From: Owenia fusiformis
Taxonomy: Eukaryota > Annelida > Polychaeta > Sabellida > Oweniidae
NCBI GenBank assembly: GCA_903813345.2
Contig: CAIIXF020000001.1
Coordinates: 17,255,915 to 17,319,914, forward strand
Direction of reading: 5' to 3'
Length of the DNA stretch: 64,000 nt
The notes beneath the pieces are model-generated. The model did not search any database, was not told the DNA's origin, and was given only the letters and a program-made list of their open reading frames with translations. Positions 4,551 to 63,790 of the stretch are shown one piece after another. Every line of letters starts with the position of its first letter. The stretch's first letter is position 1. Made by a program: the position numbers and the translations under genes.

Positions 4551-5139
4551 GTAAGATCAAGCTTGAGCTAAAGCTAAGAACACGTTTTGTCTCACACCTT
4601 GCATATGTAACAATAGCATAATCTACACAAGGTAATGATCCAATGTATATTTATTCAAATCCTAACAGAAAATTAAAGGGCGCACTTATTGGTGTACATA
4701 AGTTCTTAAGCTTTGTCTCAAATAGTTTCAGCATTGTTAGGCTCGAGCTCTGCACCAGGTCTTGTGTGCATTTGGTTTGGTTTTCTCAGTGTTGTTCCTT
4801 CCACGGTAGTCGGGTCAGTGTGAAGAGCACTTTCCCCGTGTTTACATCAGTTTAGCAAACTCTCATTGACACCTTTCATTCAATACTTGACCAAGAGAAA
4901 GTGTGTAGAAAGTTGTACATTCGTGTCGGGGATGGAGGTAAACTAATTACAATGCCACAAAGAGCTTTCAAATTAAACACCACTGCGCTTTTAGAACGTA
5001 TATCAAATCATCAATGTACGTCACTTCAATTATAACATATAATGTGATGGGATTTATGAGCTGGCCAAATGGACTTGATGATCCATTGTATTTTAAGATT
5101 GTATTGTTAAAACATTAAATGTGCTTGGTTTATTTACAG

Positions 5140-6143
5140 AGAATTCACACTGGGGAGAAACCGTTCAAGTGCGAAATCTGTGGCAGAGCGTTCCGCCAAC
5201 CCGGGAACCTGACACGTCACCGTCTGACCCACACCACCGTTAAACCGTACGTCTGTTCCACATGCGGCAAAGCGTTCAACAGAGCTTCAAATCTTCACAC
5301 ACATATGCGCACGCATACCAACTACAAACCTTTTATGTGCCCATTTTGCGGCAAAGGGTTCCATCAAAAGATTGACATGAAGATCCATTCCTACACACAT
5401 ACAGGTTAGCCCTTCATGTCTTGTTTCATATACTGTTCCATAATATTTGGCCTTTAACAGGATATAGAACATATAAGTGCATAGAAATACAGATTAAATA
5501 TGTTCATTATGTTATTCATATGCATTTATTTTATTAGGAGAAAAGCCACACAAATGCCGTCTTTGTGGGAGAGGTTTCAAGCAACTTACGCATCTAACCT
5601 ACCACATGCGTACGCACTCTGATGACAAAATGTACCACTGCGAGGACTGTGGAAAAGGATTTAATCAGAAAGGAAACCTACAAGCACATGTGTTTGGACA
5701 TACAGGTAAGGCATAATGATTGCATGACTGATAGATCTTGGACTCTTCCATGGATACTTAAAATAAATCATCTGTTTTAAAAGTCATTAGGCCAGTATGG
5801 TTACATACTGTGGGGTAGGGAGGGGGAGCACATGAGTACGTCAACAAACACATCAACTAAAAACGACCTTCGAGAACAAAAAGACAAGCACCAACGAGTT
5901 ATATTCCATTTCTATTAAGAATTATCCATTTTGTGTCTATCGTCATATGTAAAACATTTCACAATCTATGTTACATATCCATAATTCATTTTACTTACAG
6001 GTGAAAGACGACACAAATGTGATGACTGCGGCAAGGCTTTCACACTGGCCAGCACTCTGAACACCCACCAAAGGACACACTTAGAAGATAAACATTTACC
6101 CGTTGAAAGTCACGAAACGTTTCTTCCAAAATCATTCCCTTAG
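5140..6143 (+). CDS. C2H2 zinc finger transcription factor (FEZF/GFI-like), 3' exons
   Basis: Three exons, 5140-5404, 5538-5705 and 6001-6143, encode six tandem C2H2 fingers with HTGEKP-type linkers and end with ...ETFLPKSFP and a TAG at 6141. Both introns are phase 1 and cut the Gly codon of the HTG-EKP linker. The first exon follows a strong acceptor (TATTTACAG) and begins RIHTGEKPF, the tail of an earlier finger or linker, so upstream coding exons are missing. Finger text such as [28 protein letters not shown] and [12 protein letters not shown] resembles both FEZF and GFI fingers. I cannot decide between them or a lineage-specific relative. Expected role: sequence-specific DNA binding in the nucleus. 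An ATG at 5119 would give a short alternative start ([12 protein letters not shown]), but the splice acceptor reading is preferred. Confidence 0.85.
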
Positions 6144-14600: not shown

Positions 14601-17600
14601 GATCAAAGAGCAGACGGCCAAGGAGGATTTCTTTGTCGTAAGAAATTTGACAAGAAAGCATGAAAATTATTTGCAATTGTGTTCTTGAAATGCTCTGAGA
14701 ATTTCTGAATGAGAGAACAAGATTTATAACTTCTCAAAAGTGTATATAAATTATAGTCCAAAGTTGTGCTCAAACTGTGCGCTACTCCTCAAACACATTA
14801 GGGAGATTTCGCAACTCACTTATAGCATGTTTATTATACGGAAATAATAAATATGCTATAAGTGAGTTGCGAAATCTCCCTAACATCATGTTTATTATAC
14901 GGGAATAATAAATATGCTATAAGTGAGTTGCGAAATCTCCATAACTCTAGAACTATGTCGAATGTTATCGGGAATGACGTGAGTTATAATAAGTGAGTTA
15001 CGAAATCTCTCTAATGTTATATATCGTCGTTATAATAATATTATCTTCTTTGTTTATTAGAGGTACCAAAGCAGCATGGTGAAGCATGTGACACTGGCAA
15101 TGCACCCTTTGACTACTGTGTCAATGACAATGCTTTATGTGACTCAGTAAATGCTAAATGTGTATGTGACAGTGCAAATTCATGGGAATGGAGGCCTGCT
15201 GCCAAAAAGTGTCGTAAGTCTTACATACAGTAGTGAGTAGAGGCTATCAAACTTTTCAGAAAGATCTCGGTTAGGCTAAAATCTCCTATTTAAGATCTAA
15301 ACCCCCAGTTTTAACCATTTAGAATTGATAACAAAGTCATATTACCAAGTAACATAATTTTTCTGTTTATGACTCATCCAATGTTCTTCTGAGATAATGA
15401 GGATTTCAGCAAGGTTCTATCAGGATATCATCATATCGAAAAGGTCAAGGCTTCGAACAAAAGATATACGTTTAAAAAATATCAGATACAGACTAGATAA
15501 AACATGAAATTAATGAGAGCCTTTTTTATGTTTATATTTTATACTTCATATTACGCAATATTGTTAGTCTATTGGATATTTAGAAATAGCATTTTAAAAG
15601 CACTTAAAATACACCGTTCACAATTTTCTCAGCCCCAACCAGTAGAAACATGTTACTGGGCATATCTAAATCGTCAATTCTAATAGTTTAGAATAAGGGT
15701 TCTTAAACAGGAGATCTCACTTGGTTTTCCAAAGCTTTGGGTTACATCTAACAACCTGGTTGTTTTGAGAGGGCTGGCTGCTTAGTTTCAGTAACATTTC
15801 TGAATTTGAAATGAAATATTGAAGTCGGACTTATATGATGTTACTTATGATTGTTTTTATTGTGATTGCGTGCCATATTTCGTTTTGTCTGCATGTGATC
15901 TCGAATACCCAAATAGGCTAACGGGAGATAGACGTAATGATCATAAAAAGATGGCAGTACAATCAACACATGTGCACGTTGCTTCGTTGATGTTTAACAT
16001 ATGAAGTACAGTGCTGCCATCTTTATATTGGCCTAAAATCCGTGTGTATATGTAATGGTTGTTGGGTGTATACTTTCTGGCTGATCTTGAATTCCATTGT
16101 CTTATTTTATGGTCTCTAGAACAACCTAAACTTGTTGGTGAGGCGTGTGATAAGAATACTTCTTACTGTACTGACTCTTTCGCAAAGTGTGGGGATATAA
16201 CTAGCTCTGGTTCTGATTCCTGCGAGTGTGATGAGGTAAACCTTTGGTTTTCAAAGGACGAGGCTGGTGTCATTGTGTGTAGTAAGTATTGCTATATTGA
16301 TTCTTACTGGGATTCTCGTCAACTGATATTCTTTTGTATCTATTAGACACACTTAAAATGATAACTTATTCCCAATAGCCAATACCAGGTGTCTCAAATG
16401 TTATTACTTGAATTAAATCTTCAGTCTGTCCCTTAATGATTTTCTAATATGATAAGGAGATTGTCAATTGTTTTTATCTAGCACCTCCTTTAAAGTCCAT
16501 ATTATGAAAAATAACTCATTTTCATTTAGTTTTCCCAATTTGGTTAAATATTTTATATTTGATTATTTTCTTACTTCTGATACTTTCACCGTTCCAATGT
16601 TTTACTAAAATCTTGTCCAAGTATATTATTTTTCTCATGAAATGAAAAATAGAATAAATGCACCCCGATGCGACATACGGTATGTTTATTATGGCTTTAT
16701 AAATCTATGTTGTAGAGAGGAGAACATTTGTTGGGAAGATATGTGATGAAAAGTTGAGTTTTTGTGATGACACAAATTCATTATGTAAAGATGACGGCTG
16801 GGGTAGTAGTGTCAATCGATGTATTTGCAAAGAGGAGTACCTAGCTGTAAAAGCTGATAATGGCACATATCAATGCGGTAAGAAAGCAATAGGACGTTAT
16901 TCTATAAAGGTCGTTTTTAAGATGACATTGCATAAGTGAAAACTAGATCATATGCTTTGATATTTGGAATGATGACATACCTTTTCATGTGTTTTATTTG
17001 TAGCTCTGAAAATTACTGGAGATAGTTGCCGTCAATGCGAAGACAACCTAGGTCAGTGTTACGATACAGATGGTGATGAGCAGCGAGATGGGTGTGTTTG
17101 TCCTTCGTCAAGGTCCGGAGATGACTGCACGATATCTCACGGTATATCTGTTTACCCATGATCTCTTACGGTTTAGTTTATATTAAAGAATATACCAAAT
17201 GTATTTTCAAGTGCAAGGAAAGTGCTAAAGATATTTTGTCCCGAGGATTGTTGTCTCAATTCGCTCTACCACCCACGTAACTAAAAAGAAGTCAGATAAA
17301 AATTTTGAGGACAAACGACAAACCATGTGCCGGGATAGTGCATATAAAAATCGAGTCTCAATCCCCTTTCTTAGGCATTATTGGTCCAAGAATATTTCAC
17401 TTCATTCAATAGCTGCTGTTTGGCAGCGAAGAGGATATGTTCTGAGGGGACTCATACTCAATTTTTATACATGTTTCCGGGCCTATGCGACAAACCATTT
17501 GATCCGAACTATAGTATATCAGTCTGTATGTTGACCTTGCAGTCAGTGTAAAGTGTACGAGGGACAGCATGAGTGTATGTTACAAGCCCCATGAAGGAAT

Positions 17601-20600
17601 TGATTTCTCCGGAGGAGCCTCGGTAGGAGCAACGATGTATCCTTATGGCTACAAGACAATAGAATGCTTGGCTATACCAGCATCTGGAGGTGACGAATGC
17701 GAAGATGGGAATCAACTTTTAAAGATTTCTATCAAAGATGTAGACCTGGCTAGATGTGGAATAAAAGTTCTTAATGAAGTAAGGGTTTGCAATTGACTCT
17801 AATTACTAAAGTAGTCCGTCAGTTAAAATCATTATCCAGACTGACCTATAGAAAGCTATATAATGAGTTTTATCTATTTTAGCCTGGACTGAAGAAATAT
17901 GAGACTCTTATTGTGGTCCAAAGAAATCCAAACTCAATAGATTCGAATGATATATCCTTCCGCACTTACTGCACGTTCGATGACGTAAAGCAGTTGTCTT
18001 TTGAAGGAATAGGAGTCCTTGGGTAGGCTAAATAAATACTATATATATAGGGTACAACATGCGTGCATGTGCACGTACAGCTTAAACTGAAAATAATTCC
18101 AAATGCAAAACTTAAGATAATTCATTGATTATAATTCCATAATCACTATTTAATTTAAAGTTGAATTTTTATTATTTTGCATTTATGCTTCTTTCATGTT
18201 ATCTCAATTCGAAAAAATGATTTAATAAGTTGGATTCATGTATGTGTGGTATTTATTTTAGAGTGCCTGGTAATTCCAACGGCGATCATCTTGAAGCAGA
18301 TATCCGCTTGTCGGTTGTTAATGCCCTCGGTCAAGAAATTCCAACGGGAGTAGCTCTTCGACTTGGCGATAGCATTGAGCTAGTAATGTCTTTAGCTGAT
18401 GATGGTTCGTTGAGTATCATTTTCAAAAAAATTCTTAAATTCAAGCCTAGATAACATCCGTTTTTTCAACACATTGATCGTGACTGCTATCTCACTCTCG
18501 CACTGTGCCGAATCACTAGAAGTTTTATGACAACTCTTTGTTTAAAAGGGGGATAGTGTAAAATATTTTGCCTTAATTTTTTTTATTTTGTTTTCAAAGG
18601 TACCTATGGATCTATGAAGGTAGAGCGATGTACAATCTCAAGTGAATCAGAAATGCCCAGTACATCGGCTGTAACTATTCCAGTCATCACAGATGGGTAC
18701 ATACATTTGCGTTATTTATTTTTATATCACCACTAACAAATGGTGATATCATGTTGTAGTAACCCATTTTTGCAACCGACATGCTGCATCGACAGTTTGC
18801 CAGTCGGCACATGCGACGTTACACTCTTGTGAGCATTTTTAAGTGTTTAATTGATGTATTCTTAAAACTCTTCTTAAATCATCCACAATTCATTGAGTCT
18901 TGATTTCAATCATAGACATGGACTTCACTTTCATATTTCACTTTTTTCACTTTCATATTTCAGTAAAGCAGATGAATACCTTATTGTTTATTTGACATTG
19001 TAGGTGTCCAACTGATAATCAAGATCATATCACCAATGAAAATACATTCAAAAGAATAGAGGGATCCACTCATTACTTGAAAACAGGTCCCATCGAAGTG
19101 TTTAAACCAAGCAGAGGGACGTCTAGTTATGTTCATTGCACCGTAAAACTGTGTCTCACTAAGAATGAAGAACAATGTAAAATGGTAAAGTCAATGTTCT
19201 TATCAATTACTAACCATCTTCATAAATAAGAAAAAATATTTGCAGCCCGATTTATCTTCTTTAAAAGTAAACTTCATCTACCTAGTATAATACAGGGTGG
19301 TCCAAAAAATGGGACACTCATATTTAAAAAATAAATATTGATTTTCTTGATGAAAACATGTCATATAATATACCGGTGCATAGGGAATTCACTTATCTTT
19401 CATTTGGTATATCATAAATCGAAAATTTATTATAATATCTGTCAACCAGCGTCCATAATATAAATTATGTCATTTTCGTTTCAAAACAGGTTTTCAAAAA
19501 CTTGCAAAAATCAGTTTTTATCAACTTTATTTACATAAACAGATGTCCAAAATGTCCACCATTTTGATCAATTATACCCCTCAATTTTGGCCTAAACTGG
19601 TCAAGGGATCATTAATCTGCTGTTGAGACAATGAATTCCACTTCTCAACAATTCTATTCTTTATAATGGCTAGATGGGAGGGGTCCATGGTACACTGATG
19701 CTTTTAGTTCTCCCAATGCGTGGTAGTCGCAAGAGTTGACACCGGATGATCCAATTATGTTGTTTTTATCATCCATTACATTTTCCAACAAGATGGAGCT
19801 CCAAGCCATAGATCCCACAAGTCTTTAAAGGAAAATGTGCCTAGATTCGCCCCCTCAATCACTGCCTCCGCCACACTCGATTCGACTACCACTAATTGGG
19901 AGAACTAACAGAATTGGTGTACCATGAATCCTTTACATCTGTTCAGTCCCTAATGGCACAGTTATTGAGAAGTGAAATTAATTGTCTCAACAGCATATCA
20001 ATGATGCTATCCGATTGACCAGTTTAGGCCAAAATTGAGGGCTATAATTGATCAAAATGGTGGAAAAAAATGGTCTGTTTATGTAAATAAAGTTGACAAT
20101 AAAACTTGGTTTGGAAAACCCGTTTTGAAACGAAAATGATGTCATTTATATTATGGACGCTGGTTGACAGACATTACAATAGATCTGAACATATGATATA
20201 CCAAATTAAAGATTAGTAGATTCCCTATCGACTGGTATATATTATGACATGTTTTGATAAATGAAATCAATATTTATTTTTGAAATACGAGTGTCCCAAT
20301 TTTTGGACCACCCTGTAGTATTATTCTCGTATATTATAGACGACCTGTCCAGCAAAGTCAGGCGGCAATCGGAGAAAACGTGCAGTTGATAGTGCTAGCG
20401 CAACTGTTAAAGTTGGTTGGAAGGTATTCGGAGAGGGAATCGCAGATGGAAACACAGGTAAAATACAAATATTTTTTCTTAAAGTAACTTTCTGTAGATT
20501 GAGTGAGTAATTTATTACCACGCAGGACACTTCTGCACTTGTTTCAATTCAATTAAAAAGTGTAGGCTAGATGGATGTCGGCATTATTTACACATGCATT

Positions 20601-32424: not shown

Positions 32425-35400
32425 TTAGCATATATAATCCTTTAACAATATGCCTTTAAATTTTCCATTCGTCATAAAGATAACACACGTACAAAGAATC
32501 ACGGTAGAGATGAACGTAACTGTGAAAATATTGTTGTTGTTTTTGATTTGACCCGTTCTGATTGATCCATCGTCTGACGTCAAGAAAATAAAATACGCTA
32601 TTTTTGAAGCATAGGATGAATACGTTAATGGGATTTGGGAAATAGAATATAACAGTCAACACTCTATAGAATAGCTGACTTCCTTACAAAATAAGATAAA
32701 ATTCAAATAAATTAATACATCATGTAAGTATGTTAATAACCATATTTGCCCACCTTGGTTACCTTTACCACTTTCTTTGCCCTTTCCATTTTCTTTTTTG
32801 GAAACATCGTCGTCTTTGGTTGATTTATCCTCAGATTTGTCTCCTTTACCTTTACTTTTGTCGTCGTTTTCGTCCTCAGTGGATTTATCTTTAGAATAGC
32901 CACCTTTACTTTTGTCATCATCTTTGTCCTCAGTCGATTTATCTCCAGACTTATCCCATTTATGTTTACCTTTGTCGTCATCCTCGTCCTTAGACGATTT
33001 TTCATCAGGCTTGACATTTTTACTTTTACTTTTGTCGTCATCTTTGTCCTTAGGCGATTTATCTTCAGACTTGTCCCCTTTACCTTTACTTTTGTCATCA
33101 TCTTCATCTTCAGGCGATTTATCAGGCTTTACCCCTTTACCTTTACTTTTGTTGTCATCTTCGTCCTTAGACGATTTATCTTGAGACTTTTCTCCTTTAC
33201 CTTTATAGTCATCTTCGACCTTAGTAGATGTATCTTCTGACTTGTCCCCTTTACCTATACTTTTGTCATCATCTTCATCTTCGATGGATTTATCTTTAGA
33301 CTTGTCCCCGTGGCCTTTGTCTTTGTCGTCATCTTCGTCCTTAGACGATTCATCTTCAGACTTGTCCCCTTTACCTTTACTCTTGTCGTCATCTTCGTCC
33401 TCCGCCGATTTATCTTTAGCCTTTTCCCCCTTGTCTTTACTTTTGTCGACATCTTTGTCCTTAGACGATTTATCTTCCGACTTGTCCCCTTTACCTTTAC
33501 CCTTGTCGTCATCTTTGTCCTCCGTCGATTTATCTTTAGCCTTTTCCCCCTTGTCTTTACTTTTGTCGACATCTTTGTCCTTAGACGATTTATCTCCAGA
33601 CTTGTCCCCTTTACTTTCAGTTTTGTCGTCCTCTTTGTCCTCGGTCGATTTATCTTCAGACTTATCGCCTTTGTCTTTACTTTTGACGTCATCTTTTTCC
33701 TCGGTCGATTTAACTTTAGACTTGTCCCCTTTACCTTTACTTTTGTCGTCCTCTTTGTCCTCGGTCGATTTATCTTCAGACTTGTCGCCTTTGTCTTTAC
33801 TCTTGTCGTCATCTTTGTCCTCGGTTGATTTATCTTTGGACTTGTCGCCTTTACCTTCACTTGTGTCGTCCTCTTTGTCCTCGGTCGATTTATCTTTAGC
33901 CTTTTCCCCATTGTCTTTGCTTTTGTCGTCATCTTTGTCCTTCGACGATTTATCTTCGGACTTGTCCCCTTTGTCTTTACTTTTATCATCATCTTTGTCC
34001 ATAGACAATTTATCTTCGGACTTGTCCCCTTTACCTTTACTTTTTTCGTCACCTTTGTGCTCAGTCGATTTATCTTTAGACTTGTCCCCTTTGTCTTTAA
34101 TTTTGTCATCATCTTCGTCCTTCGACGATTTATCTTTACCTTCATCTTCGGACTTGTCCCCTTTACCCTTACCTTTGTCATCGTCTTTGTCCCCAGTCGA
34201 TTTATCTTTAGACTCGTCCTCTTTGTCTTTACTCTTGTCGTCATCTTCGTCCTTCGACAATGATTTAACTTTCGACTTTGCACCTCTTTTTATCCGTTTC
34301 GTTTCGGTAACACTTCCAAATTCTTCATGTTGTTCATTTTCTGTTTTCGAAAAACGATTCAAAGTCCCATTTTGCATAGTTCTGTCAAAGTTTAATTGAA
34401 CATTTCTGTGAGCGTTAGACATCTGGGTAGGGTTAGAGTCATCGTTGTTACATAGAGCTTTGGAGCAACATATAAGTTTGTTAATATTTTTTTCTGGACA
34501 CTTCTTTAGGGGAATGCAACCCTTCCACACAATAAACGCATCATTATCGGAGTTTCTTATTGAGCCACAAACCTGTAAATATAATCAATATTATAATTAC
34601 CAAGGTGCCAGGTAACACACGAACAAAATAATCGTCACTCATGGTTAGATTTCGTACTTTTGTTTTGTTATAGCTATTTATAAGATATTATAGATTATCT
34701 CTTGGATGAAAATTTTCTCTTTTTTCAAACTTGATATAACATATGTAACATAAAGAATCGACTATACTATCCCCAGGCTTAATCCATTAGTTCTTATAAT
34801 TCAAAATGACGAATAAAAGACGTGGGTGTATGTAAGGCTAAATGAGGTCAATAAGAAAATGTTATAATTGACCTGTTCTTAGTGTTGATTGTTTACTTAA
34901 ACATTGTATCATTCCACTTTGGAAAGATACTTCATTAGACTTAAACTTGATTCAGGTATATTGATTACAGTGATATGTACCATTGTATTATATGAACAAT
35001 GAGTTTTAAAATAAGTCTAAATATGCTTTAAAACATGTTGTTTGAATTTGCCAAAAAGGTTCAATTGAATTTCATTGACATGCTCTTAAAAGGGTTTATG
35101 ATGAAAATGGCTTGATAATATTCTTCTGTCCCGACAATGTATAATTTATGACAACATTGTTCAAATTAAATGTTCCCATAATTGGGTATACAACCTAATT
35201 TACTTTTCTGTCATCGAAGAATCACCGAGGGAAATGATCGTTAATGTTTATTGTTAAGGAGTACAAGTACATGTATAATGAGCAAGAGATGTCTCTTCTC
35301 TAGCTACAATGTCTAAAATTCTTTTTTTAATAAAATTAAATCCGTTGAAATGCAAAGAAATATCATTAAAAGACCATGTGCAGTATGGTAAGTGATTTTA

Positions 35401-47992: not shown

Positions 47993-50900
47993 ATGAACAC
48001 AATCTTATTTGTGCTTTTGATGGTGAGTATTGGAATTTTTATTTTTTTAAACAATATGTTAATCGTAGGCATCGTGTTACATAAACTTAATAGTTCTTCA
48101 TCTTATGGTACTCGATATAATTTGCATTGGTTACTCTTTCAGCGGTTGCTAGGGCTGCATCCAAAAATAACGGCGACAAATTTGCATAACATTGATTTGT
48201 AAAATTCGTTAGGGTGATCTTATTTTTGACGTCTTTTATGTCTTATGATGATGAACGATGTCTATCTCAGTGATCTTTATCGTTTTGATAATTTCAATTA
48301 TTTTACATCGACAAATTATTTTAACAAACTACATTGGGACGGGTAAACTACAATTTTGGATCGAATGGGAGCTGGGCTGATGTGGGAGGGGATCCTGGCG
48401 GGAGGGGATCAATTTATAAAGTATATACACATATCTGTACACTTGCGACCACATATATTTGCTTGCGACATTACGAAGACAGGACTTTATATAACACAAC
48501 ATGCAAACAATATCGATGAGCGTATCAAGTATATATGGAAAATTGGAAATTAAAGATGTTGATAACAGATGGGAAAACCACGATGCAATTTTAATCTTCT
48601 ATATGGTGTTGTAAGTACATGAATCATGTTCAGTTCAAAGGACAACAATTCACTGAAATCAAAAGGACGATGGGCACCTTAACCTGCAAATCCAAACATT
48701 AACGCAACTTGTTCAGTATAATACCCTGACTGATCTCCATTCTAGAACGTTTGTTTATCCTTTTACGTGTTTAAACTTACATGAATTAAAGACCAACCCA
48801 TATGTGTGTTCTGTTTGCCGAATCTCGTTAACTCAGTAAAAGATTGAATAAGTGAGCTTGTAGCTTACTCGGGATGAGTAAATACTTGAGATTCCGTTTC
48901 GGGAAAATTTTTAGGTATCAAAGGTGTTAGTATAATATATGATTTAACATTTTGCTGTAAAACTATTTGTTTTGCCCACCATGTGTCGTTTGCCGCCCTC
49001 TGTACCAAAGTATTCACACGTTGGCGAATGTTGAGCCAATATACGGTCTAATGTAACAGCTCCATAACAAGGAAGTACAGTCACTTTTTACATTACAATT
49101 GCTAGGTTTTTTTGGCTAAAATTCATAAATGCAAATAGTTGTGTTTCTTGGGGGGCCCCCTTTCTTGTCTGTCTATCACATTAGAATCGTAACAAAGACC
49201 TCGATTAAATAATTTATGTCAAATATAGGACCTTTTTTAACAATGAACAGAATCAAATTGTCGGTCATATACTACACCATGAATTATAAAATCTCGGTCT
49301 TTTTTCCTTAATTATAGATTTTTACTTTGCAAAATTATTTATTCAATTTTTAGGTTAGAAACTGTGTTTTGCCTCCGCTCCCCCATTTTCGATATTTCTT
49401 TTCTTCAAAGATTCGACCAAACAACTAAACCAGATTTACCAAATCTCGAGCTCTAGAAAAGATAACTACCCATGTTTTTTGTCCTAAAAAGCTAGATCCT
49501 ATATACACCTATCACATTCAATCATTACCCTTTCGGGCTAACATAGCATTACATGTTACTTTTTAATTGAAAAAGAAAAATACACCAAAAATAGCCCCTA
49601 TGATACTTTGACCTATACTTGACTCCATTTGACCTACTTTTTGAGATCTTAATACACTTTCCTCGAGAGTTTGGAATGACCTATAATACGGTACCTCGGT
49701 TTTTACTCAATCTCTTCAACTTTGGAAACGCCAAGGGAGGGAGGAGGGGGGTGGGTCATCAGTCCAATAGTGTTATGAAAAATACGTTGTACACATTAGG
49801 GTGGTTGAATTGAATGATCTCTCCCAACGTCGTATTGTGGATTTTTAATTTAGCATCTATTCTCTTTTTTTGCTTCGGCCGAGCCATTGATGCGCGCGCA
49901 CTAAGAAATCGGGTCGTTTCACTTGATTTAAACGAACAATGTCAAATACCGACCTAGGCCATATGTGGATTTTTAATTTGACAATTGTAACTTATTCTTC
50001 ACTTCAAGGTCATTGGAACCACAAGAGGAGATGGTCGATTTGAACTGAAAATGTTGAGTTACAACAACACCGAAGGCCTAGATATATCTGAAAGCTGCTG
50101 TGATAAGCCCTGTGATGGAACTACAAGTTGCGATCATATCTTTACTGTGTGTATCTCGTCGTCTAGGTAAGTAAATAGGAGATGTTTTGCTGTCACAGCA
50201 AGTTAGTTACAAATGCAATTGCTATTCTTGGTAACATTAACGTAGTTTATTGTACATCATTATCCGTCCATGTCATAATTAACCCCTAGAGGATAAATTG
50301 AAAAAATAAATCATAGTTTTAATCATATTTTTTTGTCGATTATTTTGCCAATTTAGTAGTAATTTAAAGCAGTTTGTTGTTGGTCTTGATCTTTTCTGGA
50401 ATACTCGTTTTTTATCATCACTGTCTGTCCGTTCTTCCATCCATCCATTGGTCCATTCAACATCACCTATGGACAGATGGGAACTGCCTACTATCTAAAT
50501 TCTCATTTTCATTTACGAGAGTTTATACTCGTAATTTGGTTGTGTCATTTTAAGCAAATTCCCCAATAATCATCTTATACTTAGTGTATTAAGTATAACA
50601 TGAAGCGAAAAAAGTAGATAGCATTGAAATGTGAACATATGAACTTGAATGGCACAATAACGTTTCAATACAACGTTCATCAAAATGAAGAAGACAATTT
50701 TACATAAGAATTAATATGGTTTGACAATCGATGGCATCGTATAATCCATGAGTTTGGAACACATATATAGTAGTTGGAATAAGTCGCAAGTAATATTTAG
50801 TCTTAATCATAATTAGTGTTTAAATGAATTTTGGAATATTTTTATTTTTACACAATAAACCCCTGGGGATGAAAGGATTAATTAAAATGTGTAGACACAG

Positions 50901-53900
50901 GGGCTCCGTTATCTTATCTGATCAATATTTCTGACAACCGCCGCTTTCCATTGGTGTATTCAAGCCCAGGGACAAAACTGCTCTTTCTTTTGTCACCCGT
51001 TTGCTCAACCATATAGTAATAATTAATGATTGATTTTGTTGTTGCAGTAATCATGATTGTGATTTGATTGAGTATTCCGTGGGACCATTCGACAGCAAGG
51101 ATTTCGTTTCCGAGGACGATTTCAACGAAAACCCGGATGCTTCTAAAATAGTTACATTTGAAAAGTGGAATGTAAGTTTTTATTTTTTATTTTAAATTTA
51201 CATGAGTATAACAATGGGCAAGCTTAAGAAAAACTAGATGTATTAACATAAATCATTAAAATCGATTTAGAATTTTAATAATAATTTAAATGTATGTGCA
51301 TTGTTAGAAAAGATTGTCCAAAATCGGTTGCGCTAATTTCCCTCCTCCTTTATGATTATTATTTAATTTCGCGCTATACATTTAATAGGATATCGCGATA
51401 CCTGCTATCTTTGGAAGCACATAGGTTCAGTTGGAGATAAGTTGAAAAATTGTTTATCCTGATTAGGTTTCATCTGAAAGAGACTAAACGCCCATAATAT
51501 TGTGACTCTATATGAATATATATTGGGGATTGGCTTAGGTACCTAAGGTATGTTGGCTTAGGTACATACCTGTATATACAACACCCACTCGTTCCTATTA
51601 TTCACACAACTTCCTAATTTGCCAGACATTTACTTGGAACAAATCCAAGGACAATTGAAACTGAAAAAATGTGATCAAAAGATTATACCATAATGAAAAG
51701 ACTACACAATTAATTTCCATTAAACTTATGTTTAAACATAAACGTCATTTGCCGTAAACTCTAAAAGAGTGTAACATCTTTTTGCAGTCACACCCAATTT
51801 TTATAGTATTTTTTTTAATATTGAATAATATAATGAATAACACATACTAATACAATGAATAAAGGTAAAAATATTGCTTTACGCCATATTATCCGAGAAT
51901 ATACTTTTAAGTATAAATATAAATATTTGTCATATATGATAATGCATTGAATATCAACCATACAACCACTTTCAAAATTCGGATAGTCATAAACCAATGC
52001 AGCTAATATATTTTGAATAAGAATACTACTTCACAATAGTATAGTCTGGATGTTTTTGTCTCAGACGACGCATACTGGAGCCCAGAATGAGGACAATGAA
52101 AAGTAATTATGAAGTAAAGTTGGGATCACAAATTCAGAAATTGATCAATATCATTTACATTCACGATGACAAACAAATGACACAAATGACAACAAATAAT
52201 CAGGAAGAAAGCAAAATTTAAATCACTATATTGTAAAAAGATAAATATTCAAGCAGTTATCATGACCCAGTATTCATGGCCTTGGAACCAGGAGTTTATA
52301 TTTTTAATTTATAAACCATTATAAAATTACCCTTTCGATTCACTTAAGCGGTTAATAGATCAAGACACTTCATGTCATCTCTAGGGAATGTAATACATAT
52401 CCAAAGGTATTTCAACTGAAGATTCAGATCTCAAAATTAATGCCGTGTAAATATGTAATAAATTTTCATTTTGATCTGCCTATTTCAATGCATCATAGCT
52501 TGCGATTTATTAACATTGAAAGTTGAATTTCGATAAAATAATGAACATTAAGATGAAACATTGGTGAAAAATAGATGACTAGAAATCCTAAATTACCCAC
52601 AGTAAGGCACTCAAGTACACTTCTTAACATTGCGTGGAACACTGCGATTGGAGCCCTTGAGATTTTGACCTATGGGACCCCATGGAACCTTGTGGAATAT
52701 GGGATGTTGCCCCGATATGTCCCAAAAAGTCAATTTCCTCACGAGGCAGACACAAATAGTCAAATAGAATCATACCAAATCATATGACGTTCCACAGAAA
52801 CAATGTTCGTTGTACTCATGTACCATAGCCACGAGGGTATAGTTGGTAATCGAGACTGCATGATATATCCATGTCCTGATGAACTAGATGAATCTAAATT
52901 AAACTTCATAGGGTACTTAAGGGCCGTTTAGTGTACATAAATAAAAAAGAAAACATCTATAATGAAAACAAATTCCAACTATCCCAAATCATAATTCAAC
53001 ATGAGTTGAAACAGTGTCTAATATCACCCCACCTTTCCACCATACCAATATCACAATCCGAAACCATAACACCAAGGGACATTTCATTCATACTAAATTA
53101 CAACTGTTTACGACTAATAATTAACTTTTTTCAGGGAGAAATATATATAAAGATAACCGTTTCTGACGATGATACAGCAATTGATACAGAAGTTGATACT
53201 CTGCAAGATATCTATACTCTGGCCAATGCTTCGGCAATAGGCCAGAGTCAGATTGAGCAAGTGGATGTTACAGGTACAAGGGCTGTTTCTCCAACTAGGT
53301 GAGTAAGCCTTATTTTTAAGTACGTTTTTTTTATTTAAGCAATTCATTACGGGCTTTGTCCTATTTGGGCATTATAGCCAAAAGGGGACATGCCATTAAG
53401 AGGCCATTCTCTGACTTAGTCATGTTTTCAAAAGTGTGAAAATAAAAATATTCATGAAAAGTTCTTAAAATATTCTGAATAACAAGTTGAATATATATAT
53501 TTAATGATGGCACAAGCAAGTCTGAAAATTAACATGAAATGAAGGGTTTTGACAGATGCAAAAGATGGTAGATTTGTGATGAAGAAATAGAGGTTTTTGC
53601 AGTAACAACACAATTACCTCGAATTTATCGGTTATGAGAGACTGAGGACTAAACTTGACATAATTTTCAATCTCAGATTATCAGTAGTATCTAACTTAAG
53701 CCGGACAGCCACTCAAAATATATATGGAGCCCATAAGATTCATTTTTCTCAATTGAAGTCACTATTTCTGTTTTTAGCTTCAGAGGATAGGAGGTACATG
53801 AACATGCTAAGTTTACCTAGATCACAAGCCTTACCACAAATATAAAGTATATAAGAATAGAGTTGATATGTGTGAAAACCTTAAACTTCCCATTTTATTG

Positions 53901-56900
53901 GGGATGGAACTTGTGGACCATGTGTATTTCTAACTTCTTCACATGTGCATGGATCCAAAATTGTGGCAGCCATCTTGGATTTGTCATATTATGTGGACAT
54001 GGTTTTGGTTGTGCTGAATTTGTTTCAAAATAACATTTCTTGTATACCTTCGATAAGTGAGATAAGCATTTGAAATTAAATACAGATAGTACACTTGACA
54101 TTTAATGCAGTAAACAGTAATACAATTCATTCTTACATAATAAGTGAGTCCAGACAAAAAGTTATTATTGTGTTAGTTTAACTGGGCATAAATTACACTC
54201 ATTGGCCTTGGTTTTCTTAATTGGCTTGGATAAAATGTTGTTCTGTTTATTCAGAAAAGGAGTATAGTTCAATATACAAGTTCACATTCGTTCCATCCTC
54301 TTTTAGCTTCAGAGGATAGGAGGTACATGAACATGCTAAGTTTACCTAGAACACAAGCCTTACCACAAATATAAAGTATATAAGAATAGAGTTGATATGT
54401 GTGAAAACCTTAAACTTCCCATTTTATTGGGGATGGAACTTGTGGACCATGTGTATTTCTAACTTCTTCACATGTGCATGGATCCAAAATTGTGGCAGCC
54501 ATCTTGGATTTGTCATATTATGTGGACATGGTTTTGGTTGTGCTGAATTTGTTTCAAAATAACATTTCTTGTATACCTTCGATAAGTGAGATAAGCATTT
54601 GAAATTAAATACAGATAGTATACTTGACATTTAATGCAGTAAACAGTAATACAATTCATTCTTACATAATAAGTGAGTCCAGACAAAAAGTTATTATTGT
54701 GTTAGTTTAACTGGGCATAAATTACACTCATTGGCCTTGGTTTTCTTAATTGGCTTGGATAAAATGTTGTTCTGTTTATTCAGAAAAGGAGTATAGTTCA
54801 ATATACAAGTTCACATTCGTTCCATCCTCTTGTAGAAATGAATCTCATTTTATTTCATCTCAAATATAGAACACAAAAATATATTTCTATTAATTGCAAA
54901 AGTTAGCTTCTATGTTATGACTGAGTTTGGGTTCCGCTTCTAGGGAAAAAATATTCATCTGGAAATATCGTATTGACCATTGCTATACACTCCATATTTA
55001 ATCCTCCCAGTAAATAACATTGATATACAGTATACAAGTATATATGACATCGAGGATCTGGGTTATGTGAGACATGAGGCCACTTGTCTTTTTGAATCTC
55101 ATATTCAATATTCTTTCTTAAACCCTCATATTTAATATTTTTGGAGTGGTAATTCAATTATGTACCTATTTTTTATTCTTTATCCCATAGTTGAACTCTG
55201 TTCCGCTCTGTTAGGTAACATGAAAACATATTTATGATATTTTGCAAATGCGTGGAAAAAGTGATATCTGTGGAATACGGAAAATATTTCACAGATATCA
55301 CCTTTTGGCAGGGATTTGAAAACTGACCACCAATATGATGTGTTTTGTTACATAGTGATTTCATGACATCACGGGGATGAATGAATGAATGGATGTTGTT
55401 TTGATATGCTTTGTTTAGTTTTAGAGGTGAACTATGGGAAAAATAAAACATCCTATGAATTTTCGTGATATTGTGTTAATCTAACTCATTGATATCAATA
55501 TCTGCGCTAATTCGCTATGCTAACTTGGCAAGATATTGATATCGACTCGGAGATAAAGATAAAATCATTTAAAATCATATGATATCCTATACATATCCTT
55601 TACTGTGCCACAACTTTCTCATATGTTATATATTTTGGCACAGGCCATCATTTATTTTCCGTGAATTCATGCTTTTGTTCCTCTTTTAGAAATGAGAGGA
55701 AATCTTTGAGTTTCCTTGTATTTAAGTTGCTTAAATGTCGCCCTGTGATGTTGATAAAAGTCAATAGTAATCCATTACAGTCACAGTTGAAATGTACCCA
55801 TTGCTAGCCCAGAAACTACCAAAATAGCATTTGCATTTTGTCAATATTGCCCTATGTGCTTTTCCATGAAAATAATTTTAATCGTATCTTTTCTTCAGTA
55901 TATCATATATTACATTTTAATATATTTAAATTGGTTGATATTTATGTACTATTTACTTAGACAACAATAAATAAAGATTTTTTTGTAAAAACACCAAAAA
56001 TGGTATATGATCTTTAAATGACTGTTGTGTGAACATCAAAGGTCAAACTTCGCTGAAATTGTATTTTTATAAAGCACAAATGATTTTTCTTCAATATGAT
56101 ATGCATTATTATCAGATATCTTTGGGGGCTAAAAAGGGCCCTTAATGACACCCGTCCTTTAACAAAGTACAATAGGCAAATAAGTTCCCAGTTGACATTC
56201 TTTGCTTCCCATGTGTGACATTCTCAGAAATATAAGCTCATACCGGTCACTGATGGCCATCTCCAGATATTTGCAGCTTAGCATGAATTTGGACCTTTTA
56301 AAGGTAGTAGAATGGAAAGAAATGATTTGTGAGTCAACGACGACGTTGCAAAAGTTTCTTTTTGCATAACATACAACAGTTCTGATTTTCCCAAAGGAGT
56401 ATGAACATATTTGACTAAAGCCAAAAACTTTATTCAGATATGTTTATGATACTGGACTCATTTGAAAAAATCATAAAATTAAAGTAGAACTTTCTTTGAA
56501 TGAAAATCCTATAAAAAAACTCCAAATTACCTATTAGTATGTTGCTTTCATCTTCAATATTTCCATTCACCCTCGTAGCATTGCTAATGCCAAATCACAC
56601 ACGTGTCATTGTGGAGACAATCGTGAAACCACTTCAATTTTCACATTCCAACACACTCAGCAAACAATATTCTGGACTGAACTTGAAATAAATCCATCTC
56701 TCAAAACCCAAAACACTGAGAGCAAAAACTACCTTATAGAGCCTCGGACATGAATATTCCAAAGAAAATTATTTTTGAAAAACTGTAAATATTGTTGTTA
56801 TGGATTGAACATTGAATCGTTATAACTACCTAGTATTTTGTGAGTTATGAAAACATATCTTTAGAACCAATCAACACATTTTTTACATGTACTATAAGAA

Positions 56901-59900
56901 ATGTAATATATTAATAAGACATGGTATCATATCAAATTATTCATTTATAAAATAATATTAACATTACTTTTAAAAATTTTCAAAGTGATATATTTTGATA
57001 TCCGCATTTATTGGAAAATTAACATACGAATTCCTTCATATAACTAAATAAGGTGTAATACTGTCTAAAGAAATAAAGCAACGGATTTAAATTGGATTCC
57101 TTTCATTTTTTATTTACATGTAGCCTTCATTGAATTTACAAGCCAAAGTAGTTTGAAACTCATAAGTTGCGGTGTGACCCTTTGAATTGAAACAATTGAA
57201 ACAAGTATTGAAAAAGTGAACACTCGTGTATACGTACTTCTCTCTGATTTTCTATATTAAACTGCACTCTGATTTAAGAGTTTGAAACACTTACTATAAT
57301 GTTATGTGTCAATATGGTAATACAAATCATCAATGACATATGGCATCTCGAGTTGACAGTGTTTCGGGGAATAAACTTTGCTAGAATTATTAAAAGTGCA
57401 ACAGGTATTCACCTCAATAGTATAGATATTTGTATAGTATTCCTAGCAAATATTTCAGACCTTGACTTTTGACACCAAATCTGTAAGCTCAATGCATGGC
57501 GCCTCGTTACAAACTATGTAGTTTCACATAACTATTTTGTGCCCTTTATTGAATATCTAAATATTACGTTAAAAGCTAGCAGTCTTTACACAATAGACTA
57601 TATCACGGGATACTAGAGTATCCGCGTATATTGAGTATGACCGGTTCTTAGGCTACGAATATGACCTGTTTTGGAAAGTCATGAGAGGCACAGCTGCTTA
57701 AAAATGAAAAATAAAGGTTAACTTCTATATTATCCTTTTTGAAATTGTGTTTGTTGAATATAGTTTATGCTGTATTTAATAGTAATGTAACAATAAAATG
57801 TTAAACATGAGCTATTTTAGCAATGTAACTGTTCATAATGGAATATCAATCAGAAAGTACAGATTTCTCGCCTTAGAGCCAAATCATTAATATCACAGTA
57901 GAAAAAAACAAATCCCAAACCTTTTTATGGCTAACCTGAACAAGATCTCCAAATCTCAGTTTATATGATCCCCCGTAGAGTGAGCAAGAGAAGGATTTAT
58001 CTTTTCCCAGAGGATACGCTTGTGAAATGTCATGGAAACGAGTGTAACACGGCCCACTGATTGATGTGATCGGAATGTTACCGGTGTAGAATACGAGTGT
58101 ATGTATTGAGAGCACCTAAACTCTCCATTATGGTACCCCATTCTGATACTCAAACCATCTCTGCTATGCACAAGAATATGCTCTAGAAGGACACTGAGAG
58201 AAGGCTGTGATATCTCACGATGATGGTACCCTCGAACGTGATCGTTCAAGGTGTCCTTGCTTTTATAAATCTTGCCACACTGATCGCATTCAAAAACATC
58301 ATAAACAGAGGTGTGCTTTCTGGACATATGCCTTGTAAGACTATTTTTGTGTGTGGTGTTAAATTCACACAACGCGCACAACAGTATCTTGCGTTTTGTG
58401 GCATTGGGATCGCTAGTACCAATCAGCTGTTGAACACCTTTATAATATGTTTATATTTTCAAATACATGATAAACTTTTCTTTCCATACATTGTAATGTA
58501 TTGGTATAAAACCTGTCTTAATATATTACTGAAATTCGATAAAAATGTTCTAAAAGCATATTTTGCCATTACTTTCGCCAACATTCTGAAATCGGGTCAA
58601 CTGATTTAACCACAAATCTACAAAAGGTCTGAAATGGGACAACATAATTATAATCAAACAAGGCTATTGTTTTCGGTCTACGTTTAACTGAATTCTTTTG
58701 GAAAAAATAGGCTCTTGACACTATAAGTCATCTACTCTTATTTAGTTCTTCCCACTTTATATTGGAGACCTACTGCAAGCGTCTGAAGAGCCTCAACATT
58801 CTGGTATTTCGAATTACCTTTTGCATCTGTCACCGCTAAAAGTCGTATCCAAACACCGGTTAAATGCCGATCCAAGACATTTCACAACCGTATTCTCCAA
58901 TAATGGGGCACCAGTGACATTCGTATTCTCAAAAATTCAAAGATGTATCATATTTGGACAGAGCAGGCTAAATTATTTAAAATATTCATGACTAATTCGT
59001 AGATCTAGCTATATATTATACATAAGATGTGTCATCCTCTTCGGAGTTGCGTTGTGTTACACAAAAACTGATCAAAGATGCTGGAAACTAGGATTTTACG
59101 GCTTCAATCTAATGTTAATACGTTTTCTCTTGATTAAGGCCCCTTGTGATATGCCTGGCATTATAAGTATACCAAGTATCATTCATTGACCAAGTAGGAT
59201 AAAAAGAAAACGTTCGAAAGTGTTCATAAAAAGCAAGTACTCACCTCGTATGTTTATAGGAACAGAAATACGGTCACACTCGTAAGCTTAGAACCGGTCA
59301 TACTCAATATACGCGGATACTCTAGTTACCCGTGCTATATCATGAAAGGTGATCGATCGAATCAAATATTTTAAGTTGGAAGGGGATAAGAAAAGACATA
59401 AAGGATAGAGAGTGTAAATTATCGAAAGCAATATATTTTAAATGTCATGCCTAATCCCTCACAATACTTAATATTTTATTAAATGACAAAAACTGATATA
59501 CCAGATCAAATGTGTAGCATGATAAACAGTGAGAAAGCGGCCATATCTGAAACTAATCGAGGAAAAATAGCGGTGAAAAAATGCGCCCTGATTTCATTGA
59601 ATACGTTTTCAATTTAAGCGAGTTCACCACCACCACCCCAAAATTCTCAAGGGATTAGCATAAACATGTCATATAGTTTGAGATTATGACACGATGTCTT
59701 CGTTTCAGCATAAAATATATCATATATCTTGTGACTCTAGCTTGTTTAATCTGATCATGGAATTCTACGAGTACATCCACATATAAAAATTATACTTGTA
59801 GTATAAGAATATGACTTGCGTCATATGGAAGAAAATATAATAAATAATATTTTACTTTGTCTAATCTAAGCCTACTTACTCCCTCCAAGTTTTGGTGTAA

Positions 59901-62900
59901 ACGGATTTATCTTTTACTGCATAGATCAAAAGTACATGTACATGTACCTGGTATGTCACATTTTATTCACATTTGCAGCAACGATTTGTACTTGTTTTTC
60001 CCTGTAAGAATTTCGACATTCATTATGAGAGAAAAATATTTTCTTTTGTTATTTTGCACATGGGAGAGTGTATCGAATACTACAGTTGAAAGGTTTTGGG
60101 CCCTATATTCTAGTAAGCCGTTTTAGAAGTTTTCGAACGGTCATGCCTATTCAGAGAAAACCGCTCATAGGATTGTCTTCACATTGGCACTTCTGTTAGG
60201 GAGAGACATATTGGATGGCTTCTTGGTGGAACGATGTCGTTTCCATCATGTACTTTTACATATACAGTACATATATAGATCATCGGAATATTTTCCATTT
60301 ACCTGGTAAATTGTTCCTAACTGGTCTCCACATTCTTTGTTATTTTAGCCTAACCTACTCCATATCAGTGTGGTGTGATGAAAAATCCTACGGTGGTGAC
60401 TGTTCAGTGCAATGTACAGAAGAAAATCATTGCGAAGGACACTATTCGTGCGATCCACAGACAGGAAGCAAAGTCTGCATGGACGGTTGGATGGGAGAGA
60501 ATTGCAAAGATCCATCGAACGTCACTGAACCTTGTACTTCCTGTAAGAATACATAACATTATAACCACTTGTTTGTAATAAGTTAAAAATGCAAGGAAAC
60601 AGATTAAAATGATATTATTATATTCATTGAAATACGTTTTACTTTCCCCGACATTTTGCAATGATTTACCAATGAGAAAATGATGATTTATTGAAAGATA
60701 ACCAAATACAAAACTTGAATATTATAATTACATTATATTTCAGCCTCATGTGATAATGGAGGGACGTGTTTTCCAAAGGACGGTTCATTCTCTTGTTGTT
60801 GCATACCAGGTAAAACTTAAAGACATCATACACTTTTGAGAGAATTGACTTTCAACTGGATCTACTTTCAAACCTTTATACGTTGAATTCATGAGGCTTT
60901 TATACTTTAATTTAGGCTTTTATTAGAATAGAGTAGTAAGCTTTAGTAGGACATATATAAGTGTATATGAATGATATATCACTGTATCTAGGACAATCTG
61001 TATGTACATTGTGTCACTATTAGCTAGTGGAACAAATGCACAATGTTGAAAGCGATCTTTTAATACGATGTATCCATTTTAACCATACGCTTTACACAAT
61101 TTTATTATCTAAATACTTTTGAAGTGTCTGAGTAAAATTGAAACTCTCCAAATATTACCCCCAACTCATTTCTATATCTGCATGGTTAATATGTACATTA
61201 TCTGTCCTTATGAGGGCATTTATGAATAGATAAATGTCATCTTCACCTTTTGATACAATTCAAGAATAAGTTCCATGTGACACTAATGAAAACATCCGAA
61301 CTCTAAAATATATTTTGTATATTTTAACATCTAACGAATTGTATTTGTTTTGTTTTATATTATAAGTGTCAAAAATGTCCGGTCCTAAACAAATTTCCTG
61401 TAATTACAATGTATAGCCAACGATTAAACTACCCCCTTCTAACATATGGTAAGTTAAAAGTTCATGCAATAAATTATTCTTTTTTTGAAGTTTATGATGC
61501 GTACTATACGACACATTTAATATCTATTTTTTGTCAGTGAAAAATCTAACATGCGTAAACATTAACCAACTGAACTTAAACTCATTGTACAGTAAGATGT
61601 ACACGGAGGATCAATGACTGACTGCTTTCATAAAAATGTGAGGTGTTGACTTTTAGTATAGTTTCATTTGATATGATAAATGTTAATGAATGGTGCTTTA
61701 AATAACTGTATTTCGGTTGTTGGTTGTACACTTACATACAACGCATAAGTCATGTGTACTCATCTCAATAAATTCATGTATGCAACTTTAACTTCGACGC
61801 GTTTGGCAAGTCACATAAGGGCAAGGGGCTTGGGGAGAGGTAGAGGTTATGATTATACACAGTATATTTTTTCCTGGCCTACGCTACTGAATTATATCTC
61901 TGTTTTTTTTTGCAATCGTTGCAAAGTTAAACTTACAATTAATATACCCTATATTATATGTATGTGCTTATGTGTATATGTACTTCGCTATAATATGTGG
62001 TACTGATATTTATGTGCATGTCGTCTTCTTCAGGGTTTGAAGGTCAAATATGCAGTATTGATATTGATGAGTGTGCCGCGAATCCCTGTGACAATGATGG
62101 CACTTGTATACAAAAATTAGGAGGAGGTTTTACCTGTCAGTGTAAATATGGGTAAGCTATAGAAACCCATATTAGTCTAAAAGCAGTGAATCTGATCTGG
62201 ATACGTTATTTCAATGATATTCACCAAGAGCCAATATTGAGGAGGTATAGAAGGCAACATCTGCAAAACAAAAAAAATATAAACGAGTTTCAATCTTGCT
62301 TACGTATACTTATAAAATATACTCATAAAATTAAATAAACTTTAGCGAACAAAGTACAATTATACCGTTAATTATAAGATTATTTTAAGAAATGTCAATT
62401 CATAACTTCTCGATCAAAGTCTAAATTGATTTACTGGAAGTGCAAGTTGTAAACTCAAAAATATAACTTGGTGCAAAAACGGTCTTTCCCAAAACCACAT
62501 CGTGAATTCATATTCTCTTTATTCATTAAATGCTCCAGTTATGAGGGAGACTTTTGTCAGAAGAGGGTGTGTGTCAGCAACTTCTATGGTGAAGACTGTA
62601 ATACATATTGTGTGGCACAAGACACCTGCTCTGGCCATTATTTATGTAGCGACACCGGAGAGAAAATCTGCATGGACACTTGGAGCGGCGAAGACTGTAA
62701 CATGAACGATGACTCAAAAGTAATTTGTGGAGGAGGTAAGGATTTAGGTCATTGCATGATTATTCCTCTGACACAACAACAATTTTATTTTGAAAATTAT
62801 AACATTTTATCTAAGGAATCAAAGTGCCATGGAACGATAAATCTACATTGCAAGCATTCAATTTATGATGGGAATTGACGTCTAAAATGGTAAAGTGTTT

Positions 62901-63427
62901 TATATTTTTACATGTCTTACTACAATGTACTTGATGTTTGATTTCAACATAGGTGTAGGCACGCTGTGTTTCAATGATGGTGTCTGCGACAATGACGGTG
63001 ATTGTTGTTGTCGTAATGGTTATACGGATCCGAACTGTGGAACTATATTGAATACATGTGATGGTGTAAATTGCTCCAATGGAGGACTGTGTCAGCAACT
63101 CGTGGGCTATTATATCTGCAATTGTGCGGACGGTAAACACTTTTTAATATTATTGTCTTAGCATCGATTGGAAATGTTTCCTTTACTTAAACTTTGTTGG
63201 TTGATTTGTCATGCGAATACATTAGATTCATATTTTAATTCTGTTACCAATTATACAGTCGCAAGATTTAAGACATTTGTTACGTTATATTATTAGCGCT
63301 CCATTATTAGCTAGAGATTCAACATTAATGTATTAACATTTCCTTAGGATTCACTGGCAGAAACTGTGAAGTTGAGATTCAACACTGCTCCATGAACCCC
63401 TGCAAAAATGGGGCCATTTGCCAAGAG
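47993..63427 (+). CDS. Notch-ligand-like protein with two DSL domains (5' part, continues beyond window)
   Basis: Exons 47993-48022, 50009-50166, 51048-51171, 53135-53298, 60349-60542, 60744-60809, 62034-62151, 62539-62735, 62953-63132 and 63348-63427 sum to 1311 nt (437 codons) with matching phases. The signal peptide is short ([17 protein letters not shown]). Residues 18-130 resemble the MNNL domain of Delta ([16 protein letters not shown], later [11 protein letters not shown]). DSL-1 is residues 168-211 ([11 protein letters not shown] to GWMGENC), then an EGF, a calcium-binding-type EGF ([16 protein letters not shown]), DSL-2 at 296-338 ([11 protein letters not shown] to WSGEDC), and at least three EGF modules. 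Canonical ligands have one DSL. Both DSLs lack the RPRDDxF residues that contact Notch. Expected to be a membrane or secreted protein. The ten-codon first exon and the weak GTACAT donor of the last exon are the least certain parts. Confidence 0.88.
48023..50008. other. Intron 1 of the DSL gene
   Basis: No repeat with clear borders and no coding frame of recognisable type. If the short first exon at 47993 is wrong, an alternative signal-peptide exon would be expected here or further upstream. Confidence 0.4.
53772..54829. repeat. 529-bp tandem duplication, two almost identical copies
   Basis: 53772-54300 and 54301-54829 are direct tandem copies that differ at only a few bases (e.g. agatcacaag/agaacacaag, gtacactt/gtatactt). 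Both copies carry the same 68-codon minus-strand frame (MSS[VI]LSVFNFKCL...), which has no known domain. Located in the 7-kb intron between the MNNL and DSL-1 exons. The identity indicates a very recent event, or an assembly artefact. Confidence 0.92.
54830..57597. other. Intron sequence of the DSL gene
   Basis: No gene or bordered repeat recognised. Short frames at 54915-55157 and 55173-55451 (minus) lack domain features. Confidence 0.4.
57604..59334. mobile_element. 1.73-kb DNA transposon with 6-bp target duplication, carrying a C2H2 exon
   Basis: Terminal inverted repeats of about 60 bases begin CACGGGATACTAGAGTATCC on the left. The mirror on the right (59275-59334) is about 88% alike (CACGGGTAACTAGAGTATCC). 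The direct repeat CTATAT flanks both ends exactly (57598-57603 and 59335-59340). No transposase is seen. The interior contains a zinc finger frame on the minus strand. Inserted in the long intron of the DSL gene. The superfamily is not identified. Confidence 0.82.
58219..58426 (-). CDS. Candidate C2H2 zinc finger exon inside the transposon
   Basis: On the minus strand, a frame bounded by a CAG acceptor (before 58426) and a GTGAGA donor (after 58219) encodes two consecutive C2H2 fingers: [23 protein letters not shown] and [24 protein letters not shown]. The finger style resembles the terminal exons of BTB-zinc finger proteins of invertebrates. If unspliced the frame reads on to 57956 with non-finger sequence. 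It may be an exon captured by the transposon, or a DNA-binding part of a deleted transposase. Expression is unknown. Confidence 0.45.
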
Positions 63428-63597: not shown

Positions 63598-63790
63598 TCA
63601 GATCGACTGACAAAACAACCTTTTTTGGGGTTGTCGAGTTGGCCGAGAGGGCTTTCAGATCGACTGACAAAACAACCTTTTTTGGGGTTGTCGAGTTGGC
63701 CGAGAGGGCTTGAGCGCCGGCACGTTCAAGCTGGGCGATTGGGCGCCGTAACCACGAGGTTGCGAGTTCGAGACGCGTGTGTTCCTTGTG
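63598..63790 (+). mobile_element. tRNA-derived SINE with duplicated head
   Basis: Pol III box A (TGGCCGAGAGG, 63697-63707) and box B (GAGTTCGAGAC, 63764-63774) stand at a spacing typical of a long-variable-arm tRNA (Leu/Ser type). The sequence cannot fold as a functional tRNA with proper acceptor pairing, so it is a SINE head. The first 57 bases occur twice in tandem (63598-63654 and 63655-63711), giving two box A copies. The tRNA-unrelated body probably continues to about 63960. Confidence 0.65.

Follow-up and report, generated by a model that had tools for sequence, protein, structure and literature searches.

What kind of protein begins like a Notch ligand, carries several DSL domains and has lost in these domains the residues that contact Notch? 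This question is raised by a gene in the window, the whole 64,000-nucleotide stretch of Owenia fusiformis DNA analysed here (C1:17255915-17319914 of a 498,259,871-base genome in 525 contigs; C1-C12 measure 31.9-62.2 Mb each and C13 0.66 Mb). On the + strand we followed a spliced frame that opens with an ATG at window position 47993 and continues through 36 exons and 2,317 codons without a stop; its C-terminal end lies beyond the part read. Ten exons fall within the window (47993-63427) and 26 past it, up to about C1:17331.8 kb, and all 35 joins, those among the ten window exons included, are AG/GT and in phase. Exon 1 (47993-48022) provides the ATG, a signal-peptide-like start (by eye) and a GT donor whose phase fits exon 2. 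The start, middle and later parts of an MNNL domain are encoded by exon 2 (50009-50166), exon 3 (51048-51171) and exon 4 (53135-53298). DSL-1 occupies exon 5 (60349-60542) and is followed by an EGF with an extra cysteine, forming a CCC motif, in exon 6 (60744-60809) and by a further EGF in exon 7 (62034-62151). DSL-2 occupies exon 8 (62539-62735); exon 9 (62953-63132) holds another CCC EGF and the start of the next one, and exon 10 (63348-63427) encodes an EGF, after which the gene continues past the window. DSL-3 begins just outside, at C1:17320547, and is spread over two + strand exons. The domain order of the N-terminal part is a signal-like start, MNNL, DSL-1, two EGFs, DSL-2, four EGFs and DSL-3.

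DSL-3 is followed by a Trp/Gly-rich domain of about 105 amino acids, an S/T/M-rich repetitive stretch and an array of repeats of about 105 amino acids, mostly encoded by two exons apiece. A profile of ten of these repeats, whose best match in unrelated DNA was 0.69, found eight further pieces at E≤0.01 on the + strand of L052 and L053, the last of which begins at about C1:17360912, taking the array to about C1:17361 kb. If this is one gene, it would span at least 57 kb, with C1:17337001-17344000 unread and the end beyond the part read. Inspection by eye as far as residue 2317 revealed no transmembrane segment or Delta-like C terminus, the gene's end lying further on.

The rest of the window contains several other features. 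The intron that separates exon 4 from exon 5 contains a segment of about 530 bases twice in tandem, in near-identical form (53780-54840, by eye). Past exon 10, two identical 57-base units lead into a sequence that resembles a tRNA by eye (63598-63711), for which ARAGORN and Rfam returned nothing. A 60-base unit is repeated about 24 times with a 76% match at 32822-34253. A series of cysteine-rich EGF-like pieces runs along the + strand at 11645-17793, and the two pieces that we tried matched no Pfam family over the cut-off. C2H2 zinc-finger pieces are found at 5119-5713, the first of them confirmed by Pfam.

The preliminary description of this locus had reported a Notch-ligand-like protein with two DSL domains, which are indeed present in the exons where it placed them, although the gene has a third: Pfam recognized three DSL stretches in the 688-amino-acid N-terminal protein (E 8.5e-29). 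The MNNL domain that it read in the spliced frame gave no Pfam match at E≤1 when the whole 688-amino-acid protein was the query, and was identified when the 153 N-terminal residues were searched alone (E 4e-8, 33.3 bits against a cut-off of 22.5), with exons 2-4 matching profile positions 2-137 of 157. The profile search with both models that had been proposed succeeded on the 688 residues for DSL and only on the isolated N terminus for MNNL. EGF units, also claimed, were found in five stretches by Pfam and number six by cysteine pattern, whereas the EGF-Ca assignment, in exon 7, stayed just under the cut-off (EGF_CA, 26.3 bits against 27). Against the PDB, DSL-1 matched Jagged-2, Jagged-1, Delta-like 4, Delta-like 1, Serrate and Delta (E 4.2e-11 to 6.6e-6). 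The Pfam scores together with the long series of consistent joins rule out chance. AlphaFold, given DSL-1 with DSL-2 as the sole other alignment row, returned a mean pLDDT of 40.6. Neither the Trp/Gly-rich pieces nor the ~105-amino-acid repeats matched a Pfam family over the cut-off (two matches fell below it).

The gene belongs to a large company. At E≤0.001 the genome contains at least 63 DSL matches, set against four MNNL matches in an exon-by-exon search that missed the window gene's own MNNL. One of these four lies at C1:52.303 Mb, with two seven-cysteine DSLs nearby. Nineteen of the 63 DSL matches fall within C1:31.84-31.93 Mb, where L015-L023 form a tandem cluster of EGF arrays, DSLs and Trp/Gly-rich domains on the - strand; one cluster piece has a VWA domain, and NNST is abundant in the EGF arrays. 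When the genome was searched with the window gene's own Trp/Gly-rich domain, it found itself only, and the kinship emerged only with a profile of 17 cluster copies, whose sole match outside the cluster, among the six-frame pieces searched, was the domain after DSL-3 (E 1.3e-5). One cluster Trp/Gly-rich domain, compared with the PDB by phmmer, had no match at E≤10. The window gene and the cluster thus have in common a seven-cysteine DSL and the domain that follows a DSL. Elsewhere, open frames are built of DSL-EGF-EGF units: L028 (C2:27552000-27561900) encodes 2193 amino acids with 16 GHY-type DSLs, and L025, L027 and L051 encode 1370, 910 and 1196 amino acids, the frame of L051 running off the fragment.

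Two further DSLs, both on C8, are of the canonical type. In a tree of 39 rows and 44 columns, where 11 tandem copies represent the 42 of L025, L027, L028 and L051, every bootstrap tree grouped these two with three human DSLs (100%; support 92/78, the bootstrap not having settled). The phylogeny that the preliminary description had called for was otherwise poorly resolved: it separated this canonical-type group from the window DSLs but left the latter unplaced. The genome also has a match to the Notch NOD domain on C6 (79.6 bits) and a weaker second one at C11:1264928-1265086 (41.3 bits), which may mark a second Notch-like gene.

A review lists F199, R201, R203, D205 and F207 of human Jagged1 as forming the surface on which receptor contact crucially depends (PMC3415683). 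At these positions DSL-1 has Q, T, E, H and E, and DSL-2 has Y, V, Q, T and S, so that neither keeps any of the five; DSL-3 has E, T, H, D and A and keeps one, D205. DSL-1 aligns here without gaps to RPRDDFF of human JAG1 and RPRNDFF of JAG2, and the corresponding seven-position readings are TEENHCE in DSL-1, VAQDTCS in DSL-2 and TSHDDCA in DSL-3. The first two readings are those given earlier, as is the loss of R201, R203, D205 and F207 from both domains, to which the change at F199 can be added. The DSL at C8:9603036 reads FCRPRNDRFGHY and keeps all five contacts; that at C8:20945575 reads YCKPRDDKNGHY and keeps R203 and D205. A comparison of 18 cluster DSLs by eye shows D205 retained in 14, R203 in three and F207 in none. 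Because the loss of contacts is graded in this way, the extra cysteine described below is shared more widely than the loss of all contacts.

Each of the three DSLs of the window gene has seven cysteines, compared with six in the DSL of canonical ligands (PMC2770060). We surveyed 46 DSLs of the pattern GH[YFSHIV]xC in six proteins (16 in L028, ten in L025, nine in L051, seven in L027, one in part of L011 and three in the window gene) and found in 45 of them an extra cysteine that one or two residues separate from GH. Counted from C3, it stands in nearly all of them at the position of F206, a residue that is itself absent from the list of five contacts and adjoins F207; the text available for PMC2725086, on the DSL-EGF1 structure, contains nothing on this position. 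The extra cysteine has a companion. In 43 of the 45 cases the next domain is an EGF that has gained a third cysteine in the C4-C5 interval, which creates the CCC motif; the other two are a unit truncated by the fragment end, in which CCC is visible, and DSL-3, which is followed by the Trp/Gly-rich domain. Among the EGFs that a fixed pattern recognized in 16 ORF segments, CCC is present in 43 of the 44 that come immediately after a DSL and in none of the 152 others. The single exception among the 44 follows the only DSL of the 46 with six cysteines, unit 1 of L025 (DDELGHY), and reads CVC. Both C8 canonical-type DSLs have six cysteines; downstream of them, exons that resemble EGF1, read one by one, show C-K-C.

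The cluster follows the same rule with a different partner. A pattern recovered 18 of its 19 DSL matches, the 19th being partial with an in-frame stop, and all 18 have both the extra cysteine and a linker cysteine 9-10 residues past the last DSL cysteine. DSL-3 of the window gene resembles them, with a linker cysteine ten residues past its last DSL cysteine. Seven-cysteine DSLs seen in the genome number 64 in all: the 45 of the six proteins, the 18 of the cluster and the first DSL of L011, which by eye has a CCC EGF in the next exon. One DSL-like unit of L051, which has neither GHY nor the extra cysteine and is followed directly by another DSL, also fits the rule by eye. A 650-amino-acid open frame in L024 (6902-8851, C1:48.007 Mb), with an S/T/P-rich tail, strings together many short DSL-like repeats of six cysteines and has no EGF, again in keeping with the rule (by eye). 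Since tandem copies are not independent, the figure of 43 out of 44 reflects only a small number of events: the two cysteines were gained together at least once and were perhaps lost together once.

In Jagged1 the DSL disulfides pair consecutive cysteines (PMC3415683). With the six standard cysteines already paired, the seventh needs a partner outside the DSL, and we infer that it is bonded to the domain that follows through an additional disulfide rather than remaining a free thiol. The partner could be the cysteine between C4 and C5 of the EGF, or the linker cysteine (C1 of the EGF) with re-pairing within the EGF. The preliminary description had noted the extra cysteine in DSL-1 and DSL-2 and had left open whether it was unpaired or part of an added disulfide; given that it recurs in many DSLs and co-occurs with a cysteine in the next domain, the disulfide fits better.

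Taken together, these observations are best explained, in our view, by a giant extracellular protein with a Notch-ligand-type MNNL-DSL head, a member of a family that has expanded in this lineage with the DSL reused as a building block, and with a structural or adhesive function; we consider this reading probable. The two extra cysteines would form a fourth disulfide that clamps the DSL onto the following domain, next to the position of F207, one of the Notch contacts. Clamped in this way, the S/T-rich and repeat-bearing chain would work in a surface coat or extracellular matrix, in adhesion, cuticle, mucus or tube, and Notch signalling would be left to a conventional ligand encoded at another place in the genome. 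From the architecture alone, a matrix or adhesion role can be proposed for the window protein, which presumably does not activate Notch; as far as its sequence tells, a role in building or adhesion is likelier than one in Notch signalling. We suggest more tentatively, as a possibility that falls short of even chances, that a ligand head gained a cysteine beside F207 together with one in the next domain, and that the resulting clamped brick was copied more than 60 times into giant proteins within one lineage. If true, this would give a concrete example of how a receptor-binding domain may leave signalling, through a cysteine beside its contact face and a partner in the next domain. MNNL plus DSL plus EGF, a usual criterion for Delta, also catches proteins that lack the contacts.

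Several other explanations would account for parts of these data. One is that the protein is an ordinary ligand variant that still activates Notch, its three DSLs adding avidity. Its MNNL-DSL-EGF order does match Delta and Jagged; however, the contacts are lost, cysteines have been added, the 2,317 residues read show by eye no Delta-like C terminus and canonical-type DSLs exist elsewhere in the genome, and we regard this as very unlikely. A role as a decoy or cis-inhibitor that binds Notch through the MNNL domain or the EGFs and does not activate it draws on the retained MNNL, since in human ligands this C2 domain provides a second contact with Notch and holds a Notch-EGF12 site (PMC5538765), and on the presence of a Notch NOD match in the genome. 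Sponge Deltas, moreover, are described as lacking the bilaterian DSL binding sites (PMC3482393), so the loss of DSL contacts alone cannot exclude Notch binding. Nevertheless, all five contacts differ in two of the three DSLs, and most DSL matches have no MNNL that the exon-by-exon search detected (the search that missed the window gene's own), which makes a decoy improbable. The earlier suggestion of a non-canonical ligand, a decoy or a structural protein is therefore upheld as to a non-canonical role, with the structural option favoured over the decoy.

The same expansion might instead reflect recognition molecules, that is, tandem-expanded and fast-diverging surface receptors or secreted binders, for example in immune or self-recognition. 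The concentration of 19 of the 63 DSL matches in one 31.84-31.93 Mb segment of C1, the VWA domain in one of its pieces and the wide divergence among the DSLs agree with this idea, yet tandem copies of a building block suit structural proteins equally, and we think it unlikely. It is also rather improbable that DSL-1 and DSL-2 belong to separate mRNAs from two genes, or that exons 5-7 are optional. Skipping of DSL-1 is possible because exons 5-7 total 378 bases and exon 4 joins exon 8 in frame; against separate transcripts, every join is AG/GT and in phase, and each of the two DSLs has its own CCC EGF in the next exon.

Compared with known systems, the structural or adhesive protein that we favour resembles Delta and Serrate/Jagged in its N-terminal MNNL, DSL and EGFs and in the DSL fold residues (YG, GHY and W.G..C). 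It differs from them in having three seven-cysteine DSLs with contacts lost instead of a single six-cysteine DSL with contacts, and in its CCC first EGF and its S/T/M-rich and repeat regions. In Nematostella, DSL-only genes of 1-11 repeats have been described, along with one gene that encodes MNLL and three DSLs (Gazave 2009, PMC2770060). By that description the latter shares MNNL and three DSLs in one gene with the window locus, whereas the available text mentions no EGFs, clamp or repeats and its authors leave a misassembly open. A screen of 138 DSL-family genes in Lophotrochozoa reports DSL tandem repeats in bivalves and DSLs combined with EGF and other domains (PMC8166818); the lineage expansion, the presence of more than one DSL per gene and the combination with EGF and other domains recall the family described here, although the text available, compared by description, does not mention an extra-cysteine clamp or a loss of contacts. 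More broadly, the accessible parts of the open-licence literature on such proteins do not name this clamp, which is the new part, as multi-DSL genes are already in print. A further comparison is with the 'DSL-like' proteins of Platynereis, which have a DSL and further conserved domains and stand apart from Delta and Jagged (PMC5356439). As described there, the class combines a DSL with a conserved non-Delta domain, and the window protein has such a combination in the domain after DSL-3, which is common to the cluster (E 1.3e-5).
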